Source of the DNA: a virus
Virus record (IMG/VR): IMGVR_UViG_3300005471_000012
Coordinates: 1 to 64,000 of that record
Strand: one strand, 5' to 3'
Length of the DNA: 64,000 nucleotides
Position 1 is the first letter of the stretch; each line of letters opens with the position of its first letter. The notes beneath the pieces are model-generated. The model did not search any database. It was not told where the DNA came from and saw nothing but the letters and a program-made list of their open reading frames with translations. A program made the position numbers and the translations under genes. Positions 23,996 through 31,577 of this stretch are shown in pieces.

Positions 23996-24916
23996 TCAGG
24001 GCCGGGCCGCCTCGATGAAGGTCAGTAGCGGGTCAAGATCGTGTGCCCAGATGAGGCTCAGGCCATTATCCTGCGCGTACTTGAGGTTGGCGAGAGCAAA
24101 CACTCCGGAGAGTACCGCAGCCGGTACGACATTTGCCGAGCCGAACTCCCGGCGCCACGAAACGGCCTTGACGGCCGCATCGTTGTTGATGCGCTTATAG
24201 CTATTGGTAGTGCTATTGGACACTTTGCACTCGATCGGCATGAGTCGACCGTCCTGTAGGCGCACGGAGATGTCTGCCTTCCGAGTTCCAACGTCACATT
24301 CCCCGCAGAACTCGCCCGGGCCCGGCGCCATGCTGATATTAGTGATCGGCCGGCGCGGCACCTCGGTGAAGCTGCATTGTTCAACGAGGTAAGTCTTGAC
24401 CTGCTGCTCCTGGCTCGTCTTGCCTTCCTGGCGCCGCCACGTCTCGACCTTCCGGAACGCCAGCATTGCCGCAGTGGATACCGCGGCTGTGCCGCGCTCC
24501 GCCTCAGTCGCCTCCCGGTGCTCGCTGAGCCAGGGGAACCGCTCCCGGTCAAGCCCGAGCAGAATCGTGTCCATCAGTCGGCCGGCACGCGCCGGGTCGG
24601 CCCGAATTAGCGTTGGGGCAAGCGTGACCCCGGCGACTGTTTCAAGGTCATCCGTGCTGATCGGCGGCGAGGCGATGTACCTGGCTGCGTCTACTAGCTG
24701 GTCGTCAGCGAGGAGTTCGACAGCCATCTCGCGGACCCGGAGCAGGTCGCCGGTCATCTCAAGGACTGCGTCGATGGCGACCCTGGCAGCCTGGAAATAG
24801 GTCAGATACCGTTCGAGGGGTTCGCCGACGCGCTCATGCCTGAACGCGGCGATGCTCGCCTGACGCGCATCCTCCAGGTGCTCAACGTCCCACTCGGGCG
24901 GGACTGCCTGCGTCAT
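23996..24916 (-). CDS. XamI-family type II restriction endonuclease, 306 aa
   Basis: The whole length matches the RE_XamI family: FRHERVGEPLERYLTYFQAA, ARYIASPPISTDDLETVAG, RERFPWLSEHREATEAERGT and the C-terminal VKAVSWRREFG...VVPAAVLSGVFALANL. The catalytic region (KADISVRLQDGRLMPIECKV) is a PD-(D/E)xK arrangement with E-x-K. XamI cuts GTCGAC. The start overlaps the methyltransferase gene by 35 bases, typical of restriction-modification pairs and ensuring the methylase is made first. GTCGAC sites remain in this window, so methylation by the neighbour would be needed. Confidence 0.9.
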   Translation of the reverse strand: MTQAVPPEWDVEHLEDARQASIAAFRHERVGEPLERYLTYFQAARVAIDAVLEMTGDLLRVREMAVELLADDQLVDAARYIASPPISTDDLETVAGVTLAPTLIRADPARAGRLMDTILLGLDRERFPWLSEHREATEAERGTAAVSTAAMLAFRKVETWRRQEGKTSQEQQVKTYLVEQCSFTEVPRRPITNISMAPGPGEFCGECDVGTRKADISVRLQDGRLMPIECKVSNSTTNSYKRINNDAAVKAVSWRREFGSANVVPAAVLSGVFALANLKYAQDNGLSLIWAHDLDPLLTFIEAARP

Positions 24917-26510
24917 CGCGCAGAAGTACCTCCGGGCTCGGGACCGGCAGCCGCTCCATCTCGCGCGGCTCGAACTTGGTCAGGCCGCCAGCATAGGTGC
25001 GGCCCTGCCCGGCGCGGACGGAGACGCGCAAATACGCCAAGAGATCGTCTAGTACATCGTCGGCCAGGGGCTGCCGCGGGTAAAGGCCGTGGGCGATATT
25101 GATATGCCGGGCATTGACCACGTTCCGCACGAATGCTGGCGGCCGACGTGCCATGTACGTTGCCAGCACAGGAGCTGGACGCCTTAGCCCCACCCTCCAC
25201 CATGGCCGGCGGGTTCGGGCAATATACCCGTCCGCAGCGCCGGCCCTCCGCGCCTGCGCCAGGAATCTCTCGACTAGTTTCCGCTCCCCGGCCAGAAGCT
25301 CGTCAAGATCCTCTGGCAGGTCGATGACCAGCCGCAATGCCGTCGCGTCCGCAAGAGCAGGCCCCGCATTGAACAATTCAAGGGACCGCGTCACTGACGG
25401 GAACAGGACGCTGACGGGCAGGTCCGTGGCGCCAGCCCGCGTGATCCAAACCGAGTTCGCGCCAGTGACCTGGCCACGGTGAACGCGGCATAGCTCACCG
25501 AGTTCCACGTAGCCTTCGGCGAGCTTCGGCGTTCCTCTTACCAGAGGCCCCCAGCGGCCCGCTTCGCTGAGCGTTGCCCTGGAAACCCTCCGGCCGCCTG
25601 ACAATGCCCCCAGGTCCTGGACCCGCCTGACTTGGCGTAGCCGCATCGAGGTCGGCTGGCGCCCCAGGTGGAAGCATGACACTGCGGTCGTTGTCACAGC
25701 GTCCGCAAATGCCGCGGTTGTGGGGTCTAGGACGTGAACCGAATGGCCGCCCAGGCCATCCAGTAGCAACGCTCGTACTAGCCGGCCATAGTTCACGTCC
25801 ATCCATTCAGCTGACGTGACGAACGTCCCGAAGTCACCAGGCTTGCCGTGGCTTGCCGTGGCGAGGAAGAAGTGAACGTGCAGGCCAGCCAGCTGGCTGG
25901 CGGCAAGGCCGTGCTGGCGGGCCGTGTCTACTAGCCATTTCTTCCACTCGCCGGCGATCTGGTGATGGCGTACGTACGGCGGGTTGCCCACGTAGAGGGT
26001 CCGGCCGCATATCGGATCCGGACTCAATGCCCGGTAGTCGGTTACGGTCACGAGTGATCGGTCACCTGCTCCGGTGGCCGCCAGGTTGGCCCTAGCCGTG
26101 ATAGTCGCTACCGGATCAATGTCGACGCCGACCAGGTTAGCCCGGGGCCAGCGCCGGCCGGCCGCCATGAGGAATCGGCCTGAGCCAACGCCCGGGTCGA
26201 TCACTCGTGCCGGCTCCTCCTGGGCCTCGGCCCACTGAATCATGCTCGCGACGATGAGGGGCGGCGTGTAGGTCTGACCGAGCGGTCGGCGTTCCTCTGC
26301 GCCGCGGATCGCACAGAAGGCATCGCCGAGCGGGTCCTGGCCCGCGCGTATGCGTTCGCGCAGCTCAGCGATGTTGAGCGCGTACTTAGGCACGTCGCTC
26401 AGAAGCCGGCGCTCGTCGCCTGACCAGCCTGGCACCTCTCCTGCGCCGAGTTGCAGGGCCGCGCTGAGCAGCGTCGGCAAGTCGTTGAGCGAAGTCGTCG
26501 CGCCGCTCAC
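24882..26510 (-). CDS. N6-adenine DNA methyltransferase, XamI-type
   Basis: The N-terminal catalytic domain contains the SAM-binding motif ARVIDPGVGSGRFLMAAGRR (motif I) and YVGNPPYVRHHQ (motif IV, NPPY), the hallmark of adenine-N6 methylases. LGQTYTPPLIVASMI is the usual entry motif. A long C-terminal part acts as target recognition (IARTRRPWWRVGLRRPAPVL, VNARHINIAHGLYP). GTG 26510 follows the preceding gene by overlap; longer frames are rejected. It protects GTCGAC against the downstream endonuclease. Confidence 0.9.
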   Translation of the reverse strand: MSGATTSLNDLPTLLSAALQLGAGEVPGWSGDERRLLSDVPKYALNIAELRERIRAGQDPLGDAFCAIRGAEERRPLGQTYTPPLIVASMIQWAEAQEEPARVIDPGVGSGRFLMAAGRRWPRANLVGVDIDPVATITARANLAATGAGDRSLVTVTDYRALSPDPICGRTLYVGNPPYVRHHQIAGEWKKWLVDTARQHGLAASQLAGLHVHFFLATASHGKPGDFGTFVTSAEWMDVNYGRLVRALLLDGLGGHSVHVLDPTTAAFADAVTTTAVSCFHLGRQPTSMRLRQVRRVQDLGALSGGRRVSRATLSEAGRWGPLVRGTPKLAEGYVELGELCRVHRGQVTGANSVWITRAGATDLPVSVLFPSVTRSLELFNAGPALADATALRLVIDLPEDLDELLAGERKLVERFLAQARRAGAADGYIARTRRPWWRVGLRRPAPVLATYMARRPPAFVRNVVNARHINIAHGLYPRQPLADDVLDDLLAYLRVSVRAGQGRTYAGGLTKFEPREMERLPVPSPEVLLRDDAGSPARVGR

Positions 26511-27271
26511 GGCGCCTCCGCTGCAGGTTCGGCCTGGTCGTGAGGCTTCCGCCCGGGCGGCAGGTCCACGCTGACGTACTCGACCGGCTCCCGGAGGCTG
26601 CGGTAGATGCGGCCGCAGCGCAGCTGAACGTACCCGGGAGCGCCGAGCCGGTTGAGTTTCACCCAGGCAACCGACTTCAGCTTCCCGGCCGCCGCCGCAA
26701 TGTCGTCGAGCGCCACGAGGCCCTCCGGCGCCGGGCGCCAGTCCGCCAGCCCGAGCTCGGCCAGGTAGGCGTCCTTCTCGCCGCGCAGGTAGGCGACGCC
26801 GTCGGAGAACCACCAGATGCGGGTCGTCCCGTTGCTGACAAGGGCCGGAAGCGGCGCCCCGGCGCTCCGCATCCGGTGCCAGGTCGCCGCCTTCTTCAGC
26901 CCGGCCGCGTGAGCTAGCTCGCCGATGCTGGCCAGCCGCGTCGATGCCGCGCCGATCGCGGCCGTCACCTCGGCGAGGCACGCCTCGGCGTCGGGCCGCC
27001 AGCGCGGAATCCCGGCAGCCCATTCGCCGGCCTCGAGATCGAAGACCCAGACATGCCAGCCGTCCCGATCGCCGCCGTACCGCGCGGGCCCGAACGCGAT
27101 CCGCGCCTGGCGGGCTGCCCAGATCCAGCAGTCCGCTCCTCCAGGGCCCGGCTCCCGGGTCACGTGCCGGATGTCAAGGCCGGCGGCACCGATCGAGCCA
27201 AGGCCGATCGCCCCGCTGCCGGGGCTGGCCAGCTTGCTGCGCCGTGTCATCGTCTCGCCGCCTCCCGTCAT
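26507..27271 (-). CDS. helix-turn-helix protein associated with the XamI-type system, 254 aa
   Basis: ATG 27271 follows AAGGAGGG. N-terminal segment PGGADCWIWAARQARIAFGP is followed by two helix-turn-helix-like segments: IGELAHAAGLKKAATWHRMR and ALDDIAAAAGKLKSVAWVKL. Its stop overlaps the methylase start (GTGA). Position and fold suggest the operon's control protein, or an adaptor helping the methylase. Longer in-frame starts would overrun the promoter at 27350-27378 and are rejected. Confidence 0.75.
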   Translation of the reverse strand: MTGGGETMTRRSKLASPGSGAIGLGSIGAAGLDIRHVTREPGPGGADCWIWAARQARIAFGPARYGGDRDGWHVWVFDLEAGEWAAGIPRWRPDAEACLAEVTAAIGAASTRLASIGELAHAAGLKKAATWHRMRSAGAPLPALVSNGTTRIWWFSDGVAYLRGEKDAYLAELGLADWRPAPEGLVALDDIAAAAGKLKSVAWVKLNRLGAPGYVQLRCGRIYRSLREPVEYVSVDLPPGRKPHDQAEPAAEAP

Positions 27272-27349
27272 CGCGCCGCCGCCCTCCTTGATCACGATAT
27301 GCCATCGGGTTAATGGCGTCGGGGCCGACCCGGACGCGCCGCTACGCCG

Positions 27350-27378
27350 ATGATACGCGATTCTGATAACGCTGTCTA
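27350..27378 (-). promoter_or_regulatory. leftward promoter (TAGACA-17-TATCAT), restriction-modification operon
   Basis: On the minus strand TAGACA and TATCAT are separated by exactly 17 bases (GCGTTATCAGAATCGCG). This is the first of six such promoters, though its spacer core is the most divergent. It stands about 75 bases before the operon start at 27271 and is divergent from the terminase small subunit gene. Confidence 0.8.
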
Positions 27379-27401
27379 GTATCCTCCGAGGAGGTGCCGC
27401 C

Positions 27402-27935
27402 ATGCCGCGCAGCCGCACCGTCGCCGATCGTGAACGCGATGCCAAAGCCCTGTCCCTGCGCGCCCGCGGGTACACGCACCGGCAGATTTCCGCGCAGCTC
27501 GGCTGGAAATCACCCGCGTCCGCCGTCGGCGCCTGCACCCGCGCCATGCAGGACATGTACCGGGAGGATATAGACAAATGGCGCCAGATTGAGCTGGACA
27601 AGCTCGATGACCTGACCCGCGAGGCCTGGGACGCGATGCAGGAAGCCCACTACCTCGTCTCCCAGGGCAAGGTGGTCAAGGACGACGACGGCACGATGCT
27701 CGTCAACGCCGTCGACAAAGTCAGCCAGCTCGGCACGCTTCTGCTGAAGATCAGCGAGTCCCGCCGAAAGCTGCTCGGCATCGACGCCCCGCCGCAGAAG
27801 GCGCCGACGCCCGATAATCTTGATGCCGAGATCGAGACGCTGGTCAAGCAGCTTTCGGGTCTGGGCGACGTGCCGAAGCAGGTGGCGGACGGCACGGTGG
27901 CCGCTATCGAGAGCGCGGCCCCGCCGGGGGCCTGA
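27402..27935 (+). CDS. terminase small subunit, 177 aa
   Basis: Strong GAGGAGG ribosome site. The N-terminus contains a helix-turn-helix (LRARGYTHRQISAQLGWKSP) typical of small terminases, which recognise the packaging site. It is followed by a coiled-coil region (RQIELDKLDDLTREAWDAMQ; KISESRRKLLGI) that would form the ring. It lies immediately before the large subunit gene, the canonical order. Confidence 0.85.
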   Translation: MPRSRTVADRERDAKALSLRARGYTHRQISAQLGWKSPASAVGACTRAMQDMYREDIDKWRQIELDKLDDLTREAWDAMQEAHYLVSQGKVVKDDDGTMLVNAVDKVSQLGTLLLKISESRRKLLGIDAPPQKAPTPDNLDAEIETLVKQLSGLGDVPKQVADGTVAAIESAAPPGA

Positions 27936-27942
27936 GGCCGCA

Positions 27943-30450
27943 GTGCCGCAGCCATCGTGGGATCAGCTTCCGCCTCATGCGAAGCAGCAGCTCCGCGACC
28001 GGCTCGCGGCTGAGCTGGCGGTGCGGCGCAGTACCACCCCCCGGCCGTGGCGGAAGCTGGCGCGGCCGAAGCAGCTGCCGCCGGACGACCCGCGGCACTG
28101 CCTGCCGGATGCGAACGGCTACAAATGCGGGTGCGACAAGCCCGATATGACCTTCAATGTCTGGCTCGTGATGGCCGGGCGCGGGCTGGGCAAAACGTGG
28201 CAAGGCGCCCAGTGGCTAACGGAACAGGCAATTCGGTATCCAGGGACAGAGTGGGCCGTGGTGGCCCCAACCTTCAGGGACGTGCGCAAAACGGCTATAG
28301 AGGGCACAACGGGCATTCTGGCAGCACTCCAGCCGGGCGAGCTGGCCAGCTATCACCGCAACGAGCTGATGATCACCCTCGCGGGAGGGTCCCACCTGTT
28401 CGGCTACTCGGCCGATAATCCGGAGCGCCTGCGGGGCGCCAACCTGTCCGGTGCATGGTGCGTCGCCCGGGGGGAACCCGTACTCACATCTCGCGGGCCC
28501 GTGCCGATTGAGGACGTGCGACCCGGCATGAGGGTGTGGACGCGGCAGGGATGGCGCCGGGTGCTCGCGCAGCGGCTGATGGCCCGCGCCGCGCCCGTTG
28601 TGCGCGTCGTTACAGACGGAGGGGCGAGCGTCCGGGTCACGGCAGGCCACCGGATTTGGACGCAACACGCCGGGTGGATGGAAGCACGAACGCTGGCCCC
28701 TGGCGATATTCTTAATGTATGGAATTCGCCTACGGGCCACCGGCCTGGATCGAATGGGAGGGCGTCCGCTTCTATCGCCGCAGCAAGAGCGGCCATTACG
28801 CGGATCGCACCGGCTGCCTGCTTCACGTCGCCGTCTGGGAGCGCGCCCATAAGCGACGGATACCTGACGGCCACGCTGTGCATCACAAGGACGAAGATAA
28901 GGTCAACAACGGCGCCGGCAACCTCGAACTGCTCACCAAGGCCGAGCACACCAGGCACCATAACCTCACCGAGCCCCGCGGCATTGCCGTCCTCGCCACA
29001 GCCGAGCGGTCCGGCATATCGCGCAACTCATGGGCCAACCGGCCGGAGCGCGATTTCGCCTGTAACGTCTGCGGCACCTCGTTCAAATCCAAGGGCCAGC
29101 GGGCCATGTACTGCTCGCCCAACTGCCGCGCCGCCGCCTTCCGCGCTGATCACCGCAAACGCGGACAGGACGCGCTGGCCGACCGGCAATGCGAATGGTG
29201 CGGCGACAGCTTCACCCCGCCAGACCGGCGCACCGTCTATTGCGGCCCCGCCTGCCGCCAGAGGGCAGGAGACGGCGCGAAGCGCGCCCGCAACCGCGCA
29301 CGGCTGGGAATTCCGGCCTGCGCAGCCTGCGGCAACCTGTTCACCCCCAAGGACGGTCGCCAGCGATTCTGCTCCGGTCTCTGCCGTCAGCGGCATGCGC
29401 GTCGCGAGGCTCGAGCCCGCTGGGCGGGCTGACGTATACGACCTCCAGGTCGAGGGCGTTCACGAGTTCGTCGTCGGCCGCATCCTGGTCCATAACTGCG
29501 ATGAGCTAGGTTCGTGGCGGTACCCGCAGACCTGGTACGAGGGCCTCATGCCCGCCTTGCGGGTAGGCGAGTTCCCCCGGGTGGTCGTCACGACGACCCC
29601 CCGACTCGTCCCGCTGATCAGGGACCTGGTCGGCCGCGATGACGGCTCTGTGCACATTACCCGCGGGTCGACGTGGGAGAACGCCGACAACCTGTCTGCG
29701 GCGGCGCTCGCGGAACTCCGGCACCGCTACGGCGGCACGAGGCTGGGCCGGCAAGAGCTCGAAGGCGAGCTCCTCGAGGACGTTGATGGCGCACTGTGGG
29801 CCCGCGATGACATTGACGCGGCCCGCGTGAAGCTCGGCGAGGTGCCGCAGCTGCACCGCGTCGTCGTCGCGATCGACCCGGCCACCACGTCGGGCGAGGA
29901 TTCCGACCAGACGGGCATCGTGGTCGTCGGGGAGGGCCCGGGCGGGCACGGCTACGTGCTGGCCGACCTGACGTTCCGGGGCACCCCGGATGCGACGATG
30001 CGCAAGGCGGTCGGCGCCTACCATCAGTACCAGGCCGACTCGGTCGTGGCAGAGGTCAACAACGGCGGGGATTACATCCGGTCCCTGCTGCGGACCGTTG
30101 ACCCGCAGATCCCGTACCGGTCGGTGCGGGCGACCCGCGGCAAGCGGACCCGGGCCGAGCCGGTGTCTGCGCTGTACGAACAGCGCAGAATGCACCATGT
30201 CGGGGTGTTCCCGGAGCTAGAGGACGAGATGTGCTCGTGGACTCCGGATAGCCTCCTGGGCAGCCCGGACCGCATGGACGCACTTGTCTGGGGGTGTACC
30301 GAGCTGCGCGGCCTGTCGGTCGGCTCGTGGCGTGAAGCATACGGCGTGATCATTTGCGCTACCTGCCAGGAGCCATACATGCCGGAAGGCAAGACGGCCT
30401 GCCCGTGGTGCGGCGCCGACGTTCCGGGTGAGGCCGAGGTGCCAGCGTGA
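27943..30450 (+). CDS. terminase large subunit with intein at Walker B
   Basis: GTG 27943 is the start; the frame is open to 30450. Walker A is AGRGLGKTW (residues 78-86). The N-terminal ATPase stops at SGAW, an intein of 346 residues begins at Cys173 and ends in HN, then the extein resumes CDELGSW, restoring a Walker B-type acidic pair. The C-terminal RuvC-like nuclease shows VVAIDPATTSGEDSDQ, AEVNNGGDY and a later MDALVWG. A zinc ribbon (CATCQEPYMPEGKTACPWCG) closes the protein. Spliced TerL would be about 489 residues. TerL translocates and cuts DNA during head filling. Confidence 0.9.
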   Translation: MPQPSWDQLPPHAKQQLRDRLAAELAVRRSTTPRPWRKLARPKQLPPDDPRHCLPDANGYKCGCDKPDMTFNVWLVMAGRGLGKTWQGAQWLTEQAIRYPGTEWAVVAPTFRDVRKTAIEGTTGILAALQPGELASYHRNELMITLAGGSHLFGYSADNPERLRGANLSGAWCVARGEPVLTSRGPVPIEDVRPGMRVWTRQGWRRVLAQRLMARAAPVVRVVTDGGASVRVTAGHRIWTQHAGWMEARTLAPGDILNVWNSPTGHRPGSNGRASASIAAARAAITRIAPAACFTSPSGSAPISDGYLTATLCITRTKIRSTTAPATSNCSPRPSTPGTITSPSPAALPSSPQPSGPAYRATHGPTGRSAISPVTSAAPRSNPRASGPCTARPTAAPPPSALITANADRTRWPTGNANGAATASPRQTGAPSIAAPPAARGQETARSAPATAHGWEFRPAQPAATCSPPRTVASDSAPVSAVSGMRVARLEPAGRADVYDLQVEGVHEFVVGRILVHNCDELGSWRYPQTWYEGLMPALRVGEFPRVVVTTTPRLVPLIRDLVGRDDGSVHITRGSTWENADNLSAAALAELRHRYGGTRLGRQELEGELLEDVDGALWARDDIDAARVKLGEVPQLHRVVVAIDPATTSGEDSDQTGIVVVGEGPGGHGYVLADLTFRGTPDATMRKAVGAYHQYQADSVVAEVNNGGDYIRSLLRTVDPQIPYRSVRATRGKRTRAEPVSALYEQRRMHHVGVFPELEDEMCSWTPDSLLGSPDRMDALVWGCTELRGLSVGSWREAYGVIICATCQEPYMPEGKTACPWCGADVPGEAEVPA
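28459..29496 (+). other. intein within TerL
   Basis: Block A (CVARGEPVLTSRGPVPIEDV) and block B (VRVTAGHRIWT) lie at the N-side. The C-side blocks are ADVYDLQVEGVHEFVVGRIL and the terminal VHN before extein Cys. All three catalytic groups needed for splicing are present. The middle section, in the same frame, is Ser/Thr/Pro/Ala-rich low-complexity sequence because the DNA there encodes the HNH enzyme in another frame. Confidence 0.9.
28719..29432 (+). CDS. HNH homing endonuclease encoded out of frame inside the intein, 237 aa
   Basis: Read in a frame offset from TerL, the DNA encodes a recognisable HNH enzyme: HVAVWERAHKRRIPDGHAVH and HKDEDKVNNGAGNLELL form the catalytic site at residues 36-80. 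Three Cys-type zinc fingers follow (CNVCGTSF...YCSPNC; CEWCGDSF...YCGPAC; CAACGNLF...FCSGLC) that probably read the DNA target. The ORF begins where the intein splicing domain ends and stops just before the intein C-block. Weak ribosome site. Homing endonucleases cut intein-less alleles to spread the intein. Confidence 0.85.
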   Translation: MEFAYGPPAWIEWEGVRFYRRSKSGHYADRTGCLLHVAVWERAHKRRIPDGHAVHHKDEDKVNNGAGNLELLTKAEHTRHHNLTEPRGIAVLATAERSGISRNSWANRPERDFACNVCGTSFKSKGQRAMYCSPNCRAAAFRADHRKRGQDALADRQCEWCGDSFTPPDRRTVYCGPACRQRAGDGAKRARNRARLGIPACAACGNLFTPKDGRQRFCSGLCRQRHARREARARWAG

Positions 30451-30746
30451 CGCGAACCCCGGGCACCGGCACCTGGACCGAGGCGTACACGCCCCCTGCG
30501 CGGACCTACACGGGCGTCTGCAAGGGCGGCCCGGCGGACGGGCAGCGTCATACCCTCCCGGCCCGGCTGCCCCCGCAGGTGCGGTTCTACGCCCTCCCGG
30601 AGGCCCGCCGCGGCCGGTCCGTGGTCCTGTCCAGGTACGTGCTGATTGGCATGTTCACGGCCGGGGAACTGACGTACAACTACCAGGGGACTTACGAAAA
30701 GCCCGGCCCGGTACTCGGCGACAAGGCCAACCCCGCATGGTCGTGA
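30447..30746 (+). CDS. hypothetical protein, 99 aa
   Basis: GTG 30447 overlaps the TerL stop. Contains YTGVCKGGPADGQRHTLPAR and LTYNYQGTYEKPGPV, a beta pattern common in small phage proteins next to terminase. Function unknown. It overlaps the next gene by 10 bases. Confidence 0.65.
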   Translation: MTRTPGTGTWTEAYTPPARTYTGVCKGGPADGQRHTLPARLPPQVRFYALPEARRGRSVVLSRYVLIGMFTAGELTYNYQGTYEKPGPVLGDKANPAWS

Positions 30747-31411
30747 CCGCCGTGACGGCGAAGACGTGCCCACGGTGCGGCCTCGACAAGCCGCTTAGCT
30801 ACTTCCACCGCGACGACAGTCGGCGCGATGGCCTGCAGCCCTACTGCAGGAAGTGCAAGCGGGAACTCGGCAGGGCGCTAGCAGCCGGCCGCGCCGCCCG
30901 GCCGGCGGAAGTCGACCTGACCACTACCAAGCGATGCTGTCGCTGCGGCGAGACGAAGGCGCTAGCCGAGTTCCACCGGAACCGCCGGACTGCGCACGGC
31001 GTCCAGACTTACTGCAAGCCCTGCATGAAAACGGTCAACAAGGCATGGTCCGAAGCTCACCCTCGCCGACGGCAGGAGATCAGTCGGCAGGCTGCCGAGC
31101 GGCGCTGGGAGAAACGGCTGCTAGCAGCAGCCGGCCGCCGCGCCGCCCGCGACGGGATCGCGTTCACGATCACCGAGGCCGACGTCACCATCCCGGAGAC
31201 CTGCCCCGTCCTGGGCATGCCGCTTGTGATGGGTCACGGCCGGCACGGACCTGATAGCGCCAGCCTCGACAAGATCGACCCAATGCTCGGCTACATCCCC
31301 GGAAACGTGCACGTCATCAGCTTGCGGGCAAACATGCTCAAGTCGAACGCAACCCCCGGCGAACTGCTGAAACTCGCCGAATGGGTCTTGCAAGGAGAAT
31401 CCCCCAGATAA
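30737..31411 (+). CDS. HNH-type endonuclease with two zinc fingers, 224 aa
   Basis: Two tandem zinc modules at the N-terminus: CPRCGLDKPLSYFHRDD...CRKC and CCRCGETKALAEFHRNR...CKPC. The C-terminal half has CPVLGMPLVM and SASLDKIDPMLGYIPGNVHV, then SLRANMLKSNA, characteristic of a phage HNH-like endonuclease family. It could be an accessory packaging nuclease beside TerL or a free-standing homing enzyme. ATG 30737 chosen; GTG 30743 is possible. Confidence 0.75.
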   Translation: MVVTAVTAKTCPRCGLDKPLSYFHRDDSRRDGLQPYCRKCKRELGRALAAGRAARPAEVDLTTTKRCCRCGETKALAEFHRNRRTAHGVQTYCKPCMKTVNKAWSEAHPRRRQEISRQAAERRWEKRLLAAAGRRAARDGIAFTITEADVTIPETCPVLGMPLVMGHGRHGPDSASLDKIDPMLGYIPGNVHVISLRANMLKSNATPGELLKLAEWVLQGESPR

Positions 31412-31427
31412 GGGGGGGCGCTCAGGG

Positions 31428-31577
31428 ATGGGTGTCCGGCCTGGCAAACGCTGCGGCGGCAAGGCCGGCGGGCGGCCACAGCCCGGAAGTGGCTCCCTGC
31501 CCTCCCGTCGTCACGGTAAAAGCCGGCGGGGCGCCAGCCGCCTGCGCGGCTGGCGTCCCGTCAGCCACGGCAACTGA
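31428..31577 (+). CDS. possible small Arg/Gly-rich protein, 49 aa
   Basis: ATG 31428 follows a G-rich stretch. Product is MGVRPGKRCGGKAGGRPQPG and continues Arg/Gly-rich, resembling basic leader peptides. It could also be non-coding sequence. Included because the gap between genes is otherwise empty. Confidence 0.3.
   Translation: MGVRPGKRCGGKAGGRPQPGSGSLPSRRHGKSRRGASRLRGWRPVSHGN

Follow-up and report, generated by a model that had tools for sequence, protein, structure and literature searches.

An HNH endonuclease gene lies overprinted, in the -1 frame, on the linker of a phage terminase intein, in a layout that recurs in phage loci

The stretch analysed here (the window) comprises positions 1-64,000 of the 91,148-base virus record IMGVR_UViG_3300005471_000012, and carries on its plus strand a terminase ORF (TerL; 27820-30450, frame 1, with GTG 27943 as the likely start) in which Pfam matches to Terminase_6N and Terminase_6C, both in the TerL frame, are separated by an intein. 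The N-extein (27943-28458), which holds the ATPase domain and matches Terminase_6N, runs from the GTG start to GAW and aligns without a gap at the insertion site to the intein-free TerL of locus L217. The C-extein (29497-30447) resumes at the Walker B sequence CDELG and includes the nuclease domain (Terminase_6C, E=1.6e-18; TerL matches in 140 phage records). The complete intein (28459-29496, 346 aa) sits directly ahead of the Walker B residues, between GAW and CDEL(G), and was delimited by Pfam Intein_splicing and Hint_2 matches, both in the TerL frame, by block alignment and by a predicted Hint fold. Its N-terminal splicing half (28459-28707; own intein-N HMM, E=1.3e-27; AlphaFold pLDDT about 96-98 as far as residue 80) contains blocks A and B and ends in Gly-Asp, with the end of block B at about 28707; its C-terminal half (29428-29496; own intein-C HMM, E=3.2e-12; pLDDT 93-98) contains blocks F and G (ADVYDLQVEG...ILVHN), block F starting at about 29428. 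We found the residues of a class 1 intein, namely C1, T61xxH64 in block B, N346 preceded by His, and Cys+1; T61, H64 and N346 are invariant, and C1 nearly so, in 28 aligned intein members. Since a single TerL ORF covers both halves, the intein of the window is not a split intein. A sequence-only reading of this DNA had placed an intein at 28459-29496 in the TerL Walker B motif, with its blocks in the TerL frame; those coordinates are right, and the Pfam matches and block residues agree with them.

Two further features flank the terminase region. Upstream of the terminase genes lies a pair of long overlapping ORFs on the minus strand (24882-27023 and 26507-27601), one of which resembles an Eco57I-like DNA methyltransferase. 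Shortly 3' of terL, a Cys-rich ORF (30749-31408) has at its C-terminus an SLDKID...GYIPGNV...N segment suggestive of a further free-standing phage endonuclease; its Pfam matches are weak throughout (Stc1, DUF6510).

On the same strand, the stretch between intein blocks B and F also holds, shifted to the -1 frame of TerL, a gene for an HNH endonuclease (ATG 28719 to TGA 29432; 237 aa plus stop; HNH_3, E=6.6e-12), whose product combines an HNH core with three CxxC/CxxxC zinc-knuckle pairs. A TAA in the HNH frame at 28713-28715, a few nucleotides 5' of the ATG, indicates that the gene is not an in-frame continuation from upstream. Across 23 aligned HNH members, H36, H55, H56, D58, N63, N64, N68, H77 and H81 are invariant, as are the cysteines of the first zinc knuckle among the aligned members. 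From its similarity to HNH_3 and I-HmuI-like proteins we infer that the enzyme is of the homing type, with predicted cleavage and homing functions. The TerL frame stays open throughout 28719-29432 and encodes a linker rich in Ser, Pro, Ala and Thr (28728-29390; 41% identical to that of the relative L002). The window thus departs from the canonical large intein with its in-frame endonuclease, since the HNH gene is in the -1 frame and the in-frame linker is predicted to be disordered. An HNH enzyme with three zinc fingers at 28719-29432 in another frame, beneath an open TerL frame yielding a low-complexity linker, had been proposed from the letters alone, and the profile match, the -1 phase and the stop-free, disordered composition of the linker all bear this out.

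We modelled both products of this DNA with AlphaFold, using input alignments built from loci of the contig searches only. For the TerL-frame intein, residues 1-90 and 311-346 are predicted to form a Hint fold (pLDDT mostly 93-98 for residues 1-80, 87 for 81-90 and 93-98 for 311-346), while the roughly 220 residues between them (91-310) are modelled without secondary structure at a pLDDT of mostly 37-52. A Foldseek search with the intein model returned the gp41-1 intein as its top match, followed by the DnaB and RecA inteins. The HNH frame gave a model with a pLDDT of 82, whose nearest solved structure is I-HmuI (1u3e; profile E=5e-4; Foldseek E=0.027, a weak match). The models therefore predict a disordered linker in the TerL frame and an I-HmuI-like fold in the HNH frame of the same DNA.

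To look for the layout elsewhere, viral contigs were searched with the window HNH and with two alignments of HNH relatives, and the oriented loci were scored in three forward frames with HMMs for the intein N-half, the intein C-half and the HNH domain; the layout was defined as one ORF holding both intein halves with an HNH between them in another frame. This sample, drawn by HNH similarity and mostly from metagenome contigs, contains 92 non-identical phage loci with the overprinted layout, the window included, which fall into 44 clusters at 50% HNH identity and span 27-68% GC. Searching related TerL inteins for the same layout was a check proposed alongside the original reading, and it reveals a widespread layout that is not unique to the window. 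The phase is that of the window in 90 of the 92 loci and the other one in two (L015 and L157), with L175 a probable third. Pfam Intein_splicing is matched by each of the 28 enclosing ORFs tested, and terminase families by most of them; one of these terminase ORFs additionally hits LAGLIDADG_3 (E=1.3e-7), which may mark a further, canonical intein within that gene. The nearest relative, L002, has an HNH 70% identical to that of the window in an equal layout and phase. Named phages with the layout include Tetrasphaera phage TJE1, Rhodobacteraceae phage LS06-2018-MD07 and Acinetobacter phage Highwayman (L222), in whose records the terminase alone is annotated and the HNH is not. A scan of genome contigs with a single protein yielded three poor matches and no layout of interest.

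Other arrangements of the same parts were also recovered. In 13-14 HNH relatives (e.g. L056, L149) the intein halves lie on separate ORFs with the HNH between them. In Lactobacillus phage CL2 (L056, 506-2771), the annotated TerL stops at the intein N-half and is followed by the HNH gene, and an unannotated ORF (2487-2771) encodes the intein C-half and the TerL C-terminus, making this a split-intein (fractured) terminase. Vibrio phage 1.238.A (L048/L010, 245-3973) offers another split version, in which TerL with a Hint N-half is followed by an HNH gene and a separate 'hedgehog/hint' ORF that begins the TerL C-terminus. At the insertion sites of this set, no in-frame HNH was found among the collected loci. 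A canonical counterpart of the out-of-frame layout does exist in a DNA polymerase I ORF (L120, 1318-4149), whose intein carries an in-frame, distant HNH of the same broad family.

How the internal HNH gene would be started is suggested, in most relatives, by Shine-Dalgarno (SD) pairing, which upstream of HNH starts is -5.1 kcal/mol against -2.1 kcal/mol at other ATGs of the same loci (p=9e-17). L011 provides an example (AAAGGAGGATCGTT-ATG), and in the common group related to L012 the SD is read from the conserved Gly-Asp codons of block B (e.g. AAGGGTGATAAGTT-ATG). The window's own SD is weak (-1.9 kcal/mol); a -10-like box, TATTCT (28707-28712, plus strand), lies exactly at -12 to -7 of the HNH ATG, without an extended TG and without a clear -35, and marks a candidate leaderless promoter. 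Of 13 weak-SD starts, 7 have TANNNT at -12 to -7, where the frequency at other ATGs would predict 0.11, the box being TGATATAAT in L007, L186 and L213, TATTCT in the window and TACACT in L002. Because codons for Gly-Asp-hydrophobic favour TANNNT, we compared loci by ATG distance: with the ATG 12 nt downstream, 7 of 10 loci carry the box in these codons, as opposed to 8 of 82 others (p=7e-5, in a post hoc comparison). On this contrast, which stays post hoc, TANNNT need not be a mere by-product of the Gly-Asp-hydrophobic motif, and the position of the box suits a leaderless mRNA with its 5' end at the HNH ATG.

These start signals also bear on a programmed -1 frameshift, by which some ribosomes would make the HNH as a fusion with the intein N-half. 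The HNH does lie -1 to TerL, the commonest frameshift direction, yet in the window only a few nucleotides separate the HNH-frame TAA at 28713 from the ATG, and no slippery heptamer was seen there. Across the set, in which some HNH starts were assigned by rule, 60 of 92 starts fall within 30 nt of a preceding HNH-frame stop, and the starts have SD or -10 signals of their own. We regard frameshifting as improbable, though less so than the other rival accounts of the locus.

Whether the open TerL frame exceeds chance was assessed by counting the stops expected in synonymous-codon shuffles of the HNH gene. Taken by itself, the window keeps an open TerL frame in 4.8% of shuffles (P about 0.05), so that this single GC-rich sequence is not decisive. 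Over the 92 loci, no TerL-frame stops were observed against 204.6 expected, and with one gene per 50%-identity cluster (44 genes) there were none against 105.9, the product of the P0 values being about 10^-63; the unused third frame of the 92 loci held 1531 stops against 1582 expected. Since openness was itself used to class the loci, the telling controls are relatives whose class did not depend on an open enclosing frame. In the same phase, 18 free-standing HNH genes had 114 stops against 106 expected and 14 split-layout HNH genes had 108 against 103, and none of either kind was open; the free-standing HNH of Acinetobacter phage BP10 has 12 stops in the common phase. The three rarer-phase genes had no stops in their host's own phase against 23.4 expected and, in the usual phase, 28 against 25.4, with no depletion. 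Of these TerL inteins with the HNH in the other out-of-frame phase, L015 and L157 are stop-free where 7-11 stops would be expected, which suggests that loci of this kind (L015, L157, L175) arose independently. Stops are absent at 27-40% GC as well. On average, the common phase would hold about 2 stops per HNH gene and the third frame about 17, and one phase dominates because an HNH gene in the common phase needs few stop-removing changes. The homologues are thus decisive that the openness of the TerL frame goes beyond chance, and the window alone argues weakly for it.

Divergence between the window and L002 reveals which frame is constrained. HNH residues are 70% identical and TerL-frame linker residues 41%, and differences per HNH codon position are 0.18, 0.21 and 0.48, piling up at third positions. 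By the Nei-Gojobori method, dN/dS comes to 0.21 for the HNH frame and 2.09 for the TerL frame, ratios that for overlapping genes are only indicative, and in seven further pairs the HNH-frame value is 0.06-0.25. Taken with the invariant active site, this pattern shows that the enzyme is kept by selection: the HNH enzyme is under purifying selection, while the TerL-frame linker drifts, its constraint being mainly the absence of stops. It is accordingly very unlikely that the HNH frame is a dead remnant, or that GC richness alone keeps the TerL frame open, even though the window-only shuffles leave some room for the latter. A dead HNH is ruled out by the codon-position divergence and by the invariant catalytic H, N and Cys columns, and chance opening by the shuffles with their internal controls and by the stop-free loci of low GC, if weakly so for the window taken by itself.

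The distribution of the insertions suggests that they move. L217, whose TerL is 63% identical, has a contiguous GAWCDEL without insertion and represents an empty site, and L218 and L219 also match the spliced TerL query in one piece. Insertions occur at the Walker B site in 27 loci, at an acidic motif of the nuclease domain in 48 and elsewhere in 17. In an HNH tree, a quick one with many weak branches, embedded, split and free-standing forms are interleaved, with 17 state changes, and the window pairs with L002 with a support of 98; this suggests repeated movement between the embedded, split and free-standing layouts. The free-standing HNH of BP10 (L223, 2495-3136), upstream of terS, is 51% identical to the embedded HNH of Highwayman, and the TerLs of these two phages belong to different families. 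From the HNH class, the purifying selection, the patchy presence and the empty site we infer that the HNH mobilises the intein.

We put the probability at roughly 0.85 that the locus is a cis-splicing TerL intein with an HNH homing-type gene overprinted in the -1 frame across its linker, the HNH being made separately. Ribosomes in the TerL frame would make a TerL-intein-TerL precursor, in which the Hint halves (about 90 and 36 aa) would fold around the 220-residue disordered linker, splice out and restore Walker B. The intein anatomy is laid out in the DNA itself, and protein splicing is predicted from it. The HNH would be made apart from an internal start, using in most relatives an SD that overlaps the block-B Gly-Asp codons and, in a subset including the window, probably a leaderless mRNA from a -10 box in the same codons, as the statistics above indicate; it would then cut intein-free terL alleles, into which the intein would be copied. 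The phase would be fixed by the few stops (about 2 per gene) that the TerL frame meets at +1 of the HNH, as against about 17 in the other frame, and leftover TerL-frame stops would be purged by selection because TerL is essential. The earlier proposal that one segment encodes both linker and enzyme is now backed by homologues, stop avoidance, codon-position divergence and structure prediction.

Three other accounts of the locus fare worse. The HNH could be an out-of-frame gene tolerated as a loop of TerL in a non-splicing element, much as an out-of-frame zinc-finger HNH lies in the open host frame of a phage methylase (PMC11855218). Here, however, blocks A, B, F and G are conserved with Cys1, TxxH, His-Asn and Cys+1, the predicted Hint fold matches solved inteins, and the Walker B motif that it interrupts belongs to an essential ATPase, all of which make such a tolerated loop very doubtful. 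Two compensating indels from sequencing or assembly, shifting an ordinary in-frame HNH, were a concern of the sequence-only reading, for a lone contig could be wrong, yet this has next to no standing: phase and boundaries recur in about 90 other loci, isolate records included, the HNH gene ends at a stop of its own, follows another stop in its frame and often has an SD, and the equal layout and phase of L002 exclude two compensating sequencing errors, so that the idea is refuted by homologues; neither an indel pair nor an in-frame homologue at the site came to light. A self-splicing RNA intron with an endonuclease gene, suggested by the fact that intron endonucleases of the I-HmuI kind are often out of frame with their exons, is just as implausible, given intein motifs that are in frame, no reason for a stop-free exon frame in 92 loci, and no Rfam match at E up to 1 in 27400-31500, on which a group I or II intron was rejected.

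Inteins are taught as an endonuclease fused to a splicing domain in one polypeptide, or as split genes. We lean slightly towards overprinted inteins being a third general architecture, next to the in-frame and split ones, that has evolved repeatedly in phage terminases; the HNH would be expressed independently via block-B start signals (an SD or a leaderless -10), and one DNA segment would be selected at once for splicing motifs, enzyme, expression signals and stop absence. If the class is large, it would show that an invading endonuclease gene can occupy an intein without being fused to it, and that homing can be controlled independently of the host protein. It would also be a natural replicated experiment on overlapping genes, in which one frame is constrained in sequence and the other only to be stop-free. 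Annotation pipelines miss such enzymes, those of TJE1, LS06-2018-MD07 and Highwayman among them. Inteins able to accommodate 220 arbitrary residues also have appeal as splicing tools.

Among known systems, the ShiLan domain and similar insertions of an out-of-frame HNH into phage methylases (Arsenault et al. 2025, PMC11855218) share with the window a zinc-finger HNH out of the host frame in an insertion that is stop-free in that frame, and leaderless initiation has been proposed for ShiLan HNH genes from other evidence (PMC11855218). ShiLan elements, however, lack intein splicing motifs and are believed to remain part of the protein, whereas the window, which has the out-of-frame HNH, also has a splicing domain, its HNH lying between blocks B and F of a complete intein. 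Mycobacteriophage TerL inteins, in which an in-frame endonuclease is found and active endonucleases are known (Kelley et al. 2016, PMC5050341), resemble the window in their ATPase-motif site, Hint domain and endonuclease between the splicing halves; in canonical large inteins, though, the endonuclease is part of the intein polypeptide, while the window encodes it by a separate out-of-frame gene and has a linker predicted to be disordered. Among the reports compared here, we found none of a complete continuous intein with an endonuclease overprinted in another frame. A 2025 preprint by Gosselin et al. (bioRxiv 10.1101/2025.01.02.630785), which deals with actinobacteriophage inteins of 'non-canonical architecture' and is cited in PMC11855218 for overlapping reading frames in actinophages, may describe related cases. 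I-HmuI (1u3e) shares the HNH_3 core and is the best match by profile and by fold, a remote similarity, and differs from the window HNH in being encoded in a group I intron, where the latter has C-terminal zinc knuckles and an intein host. Fractured genes, reportedly described by Dassa and colleagues in 2009, are said to contain split inteins with a free-standing endonuclease gene between the halves. They are like the window in placing an endonuclease gene between the halves of a small intein, and gp41-1 is the top Foldseek match; their inteins are split, whereas in the window and the 91 other loci, a real and widespread design and not a sequencing slip, the host frame runs through the endonuclease gene.
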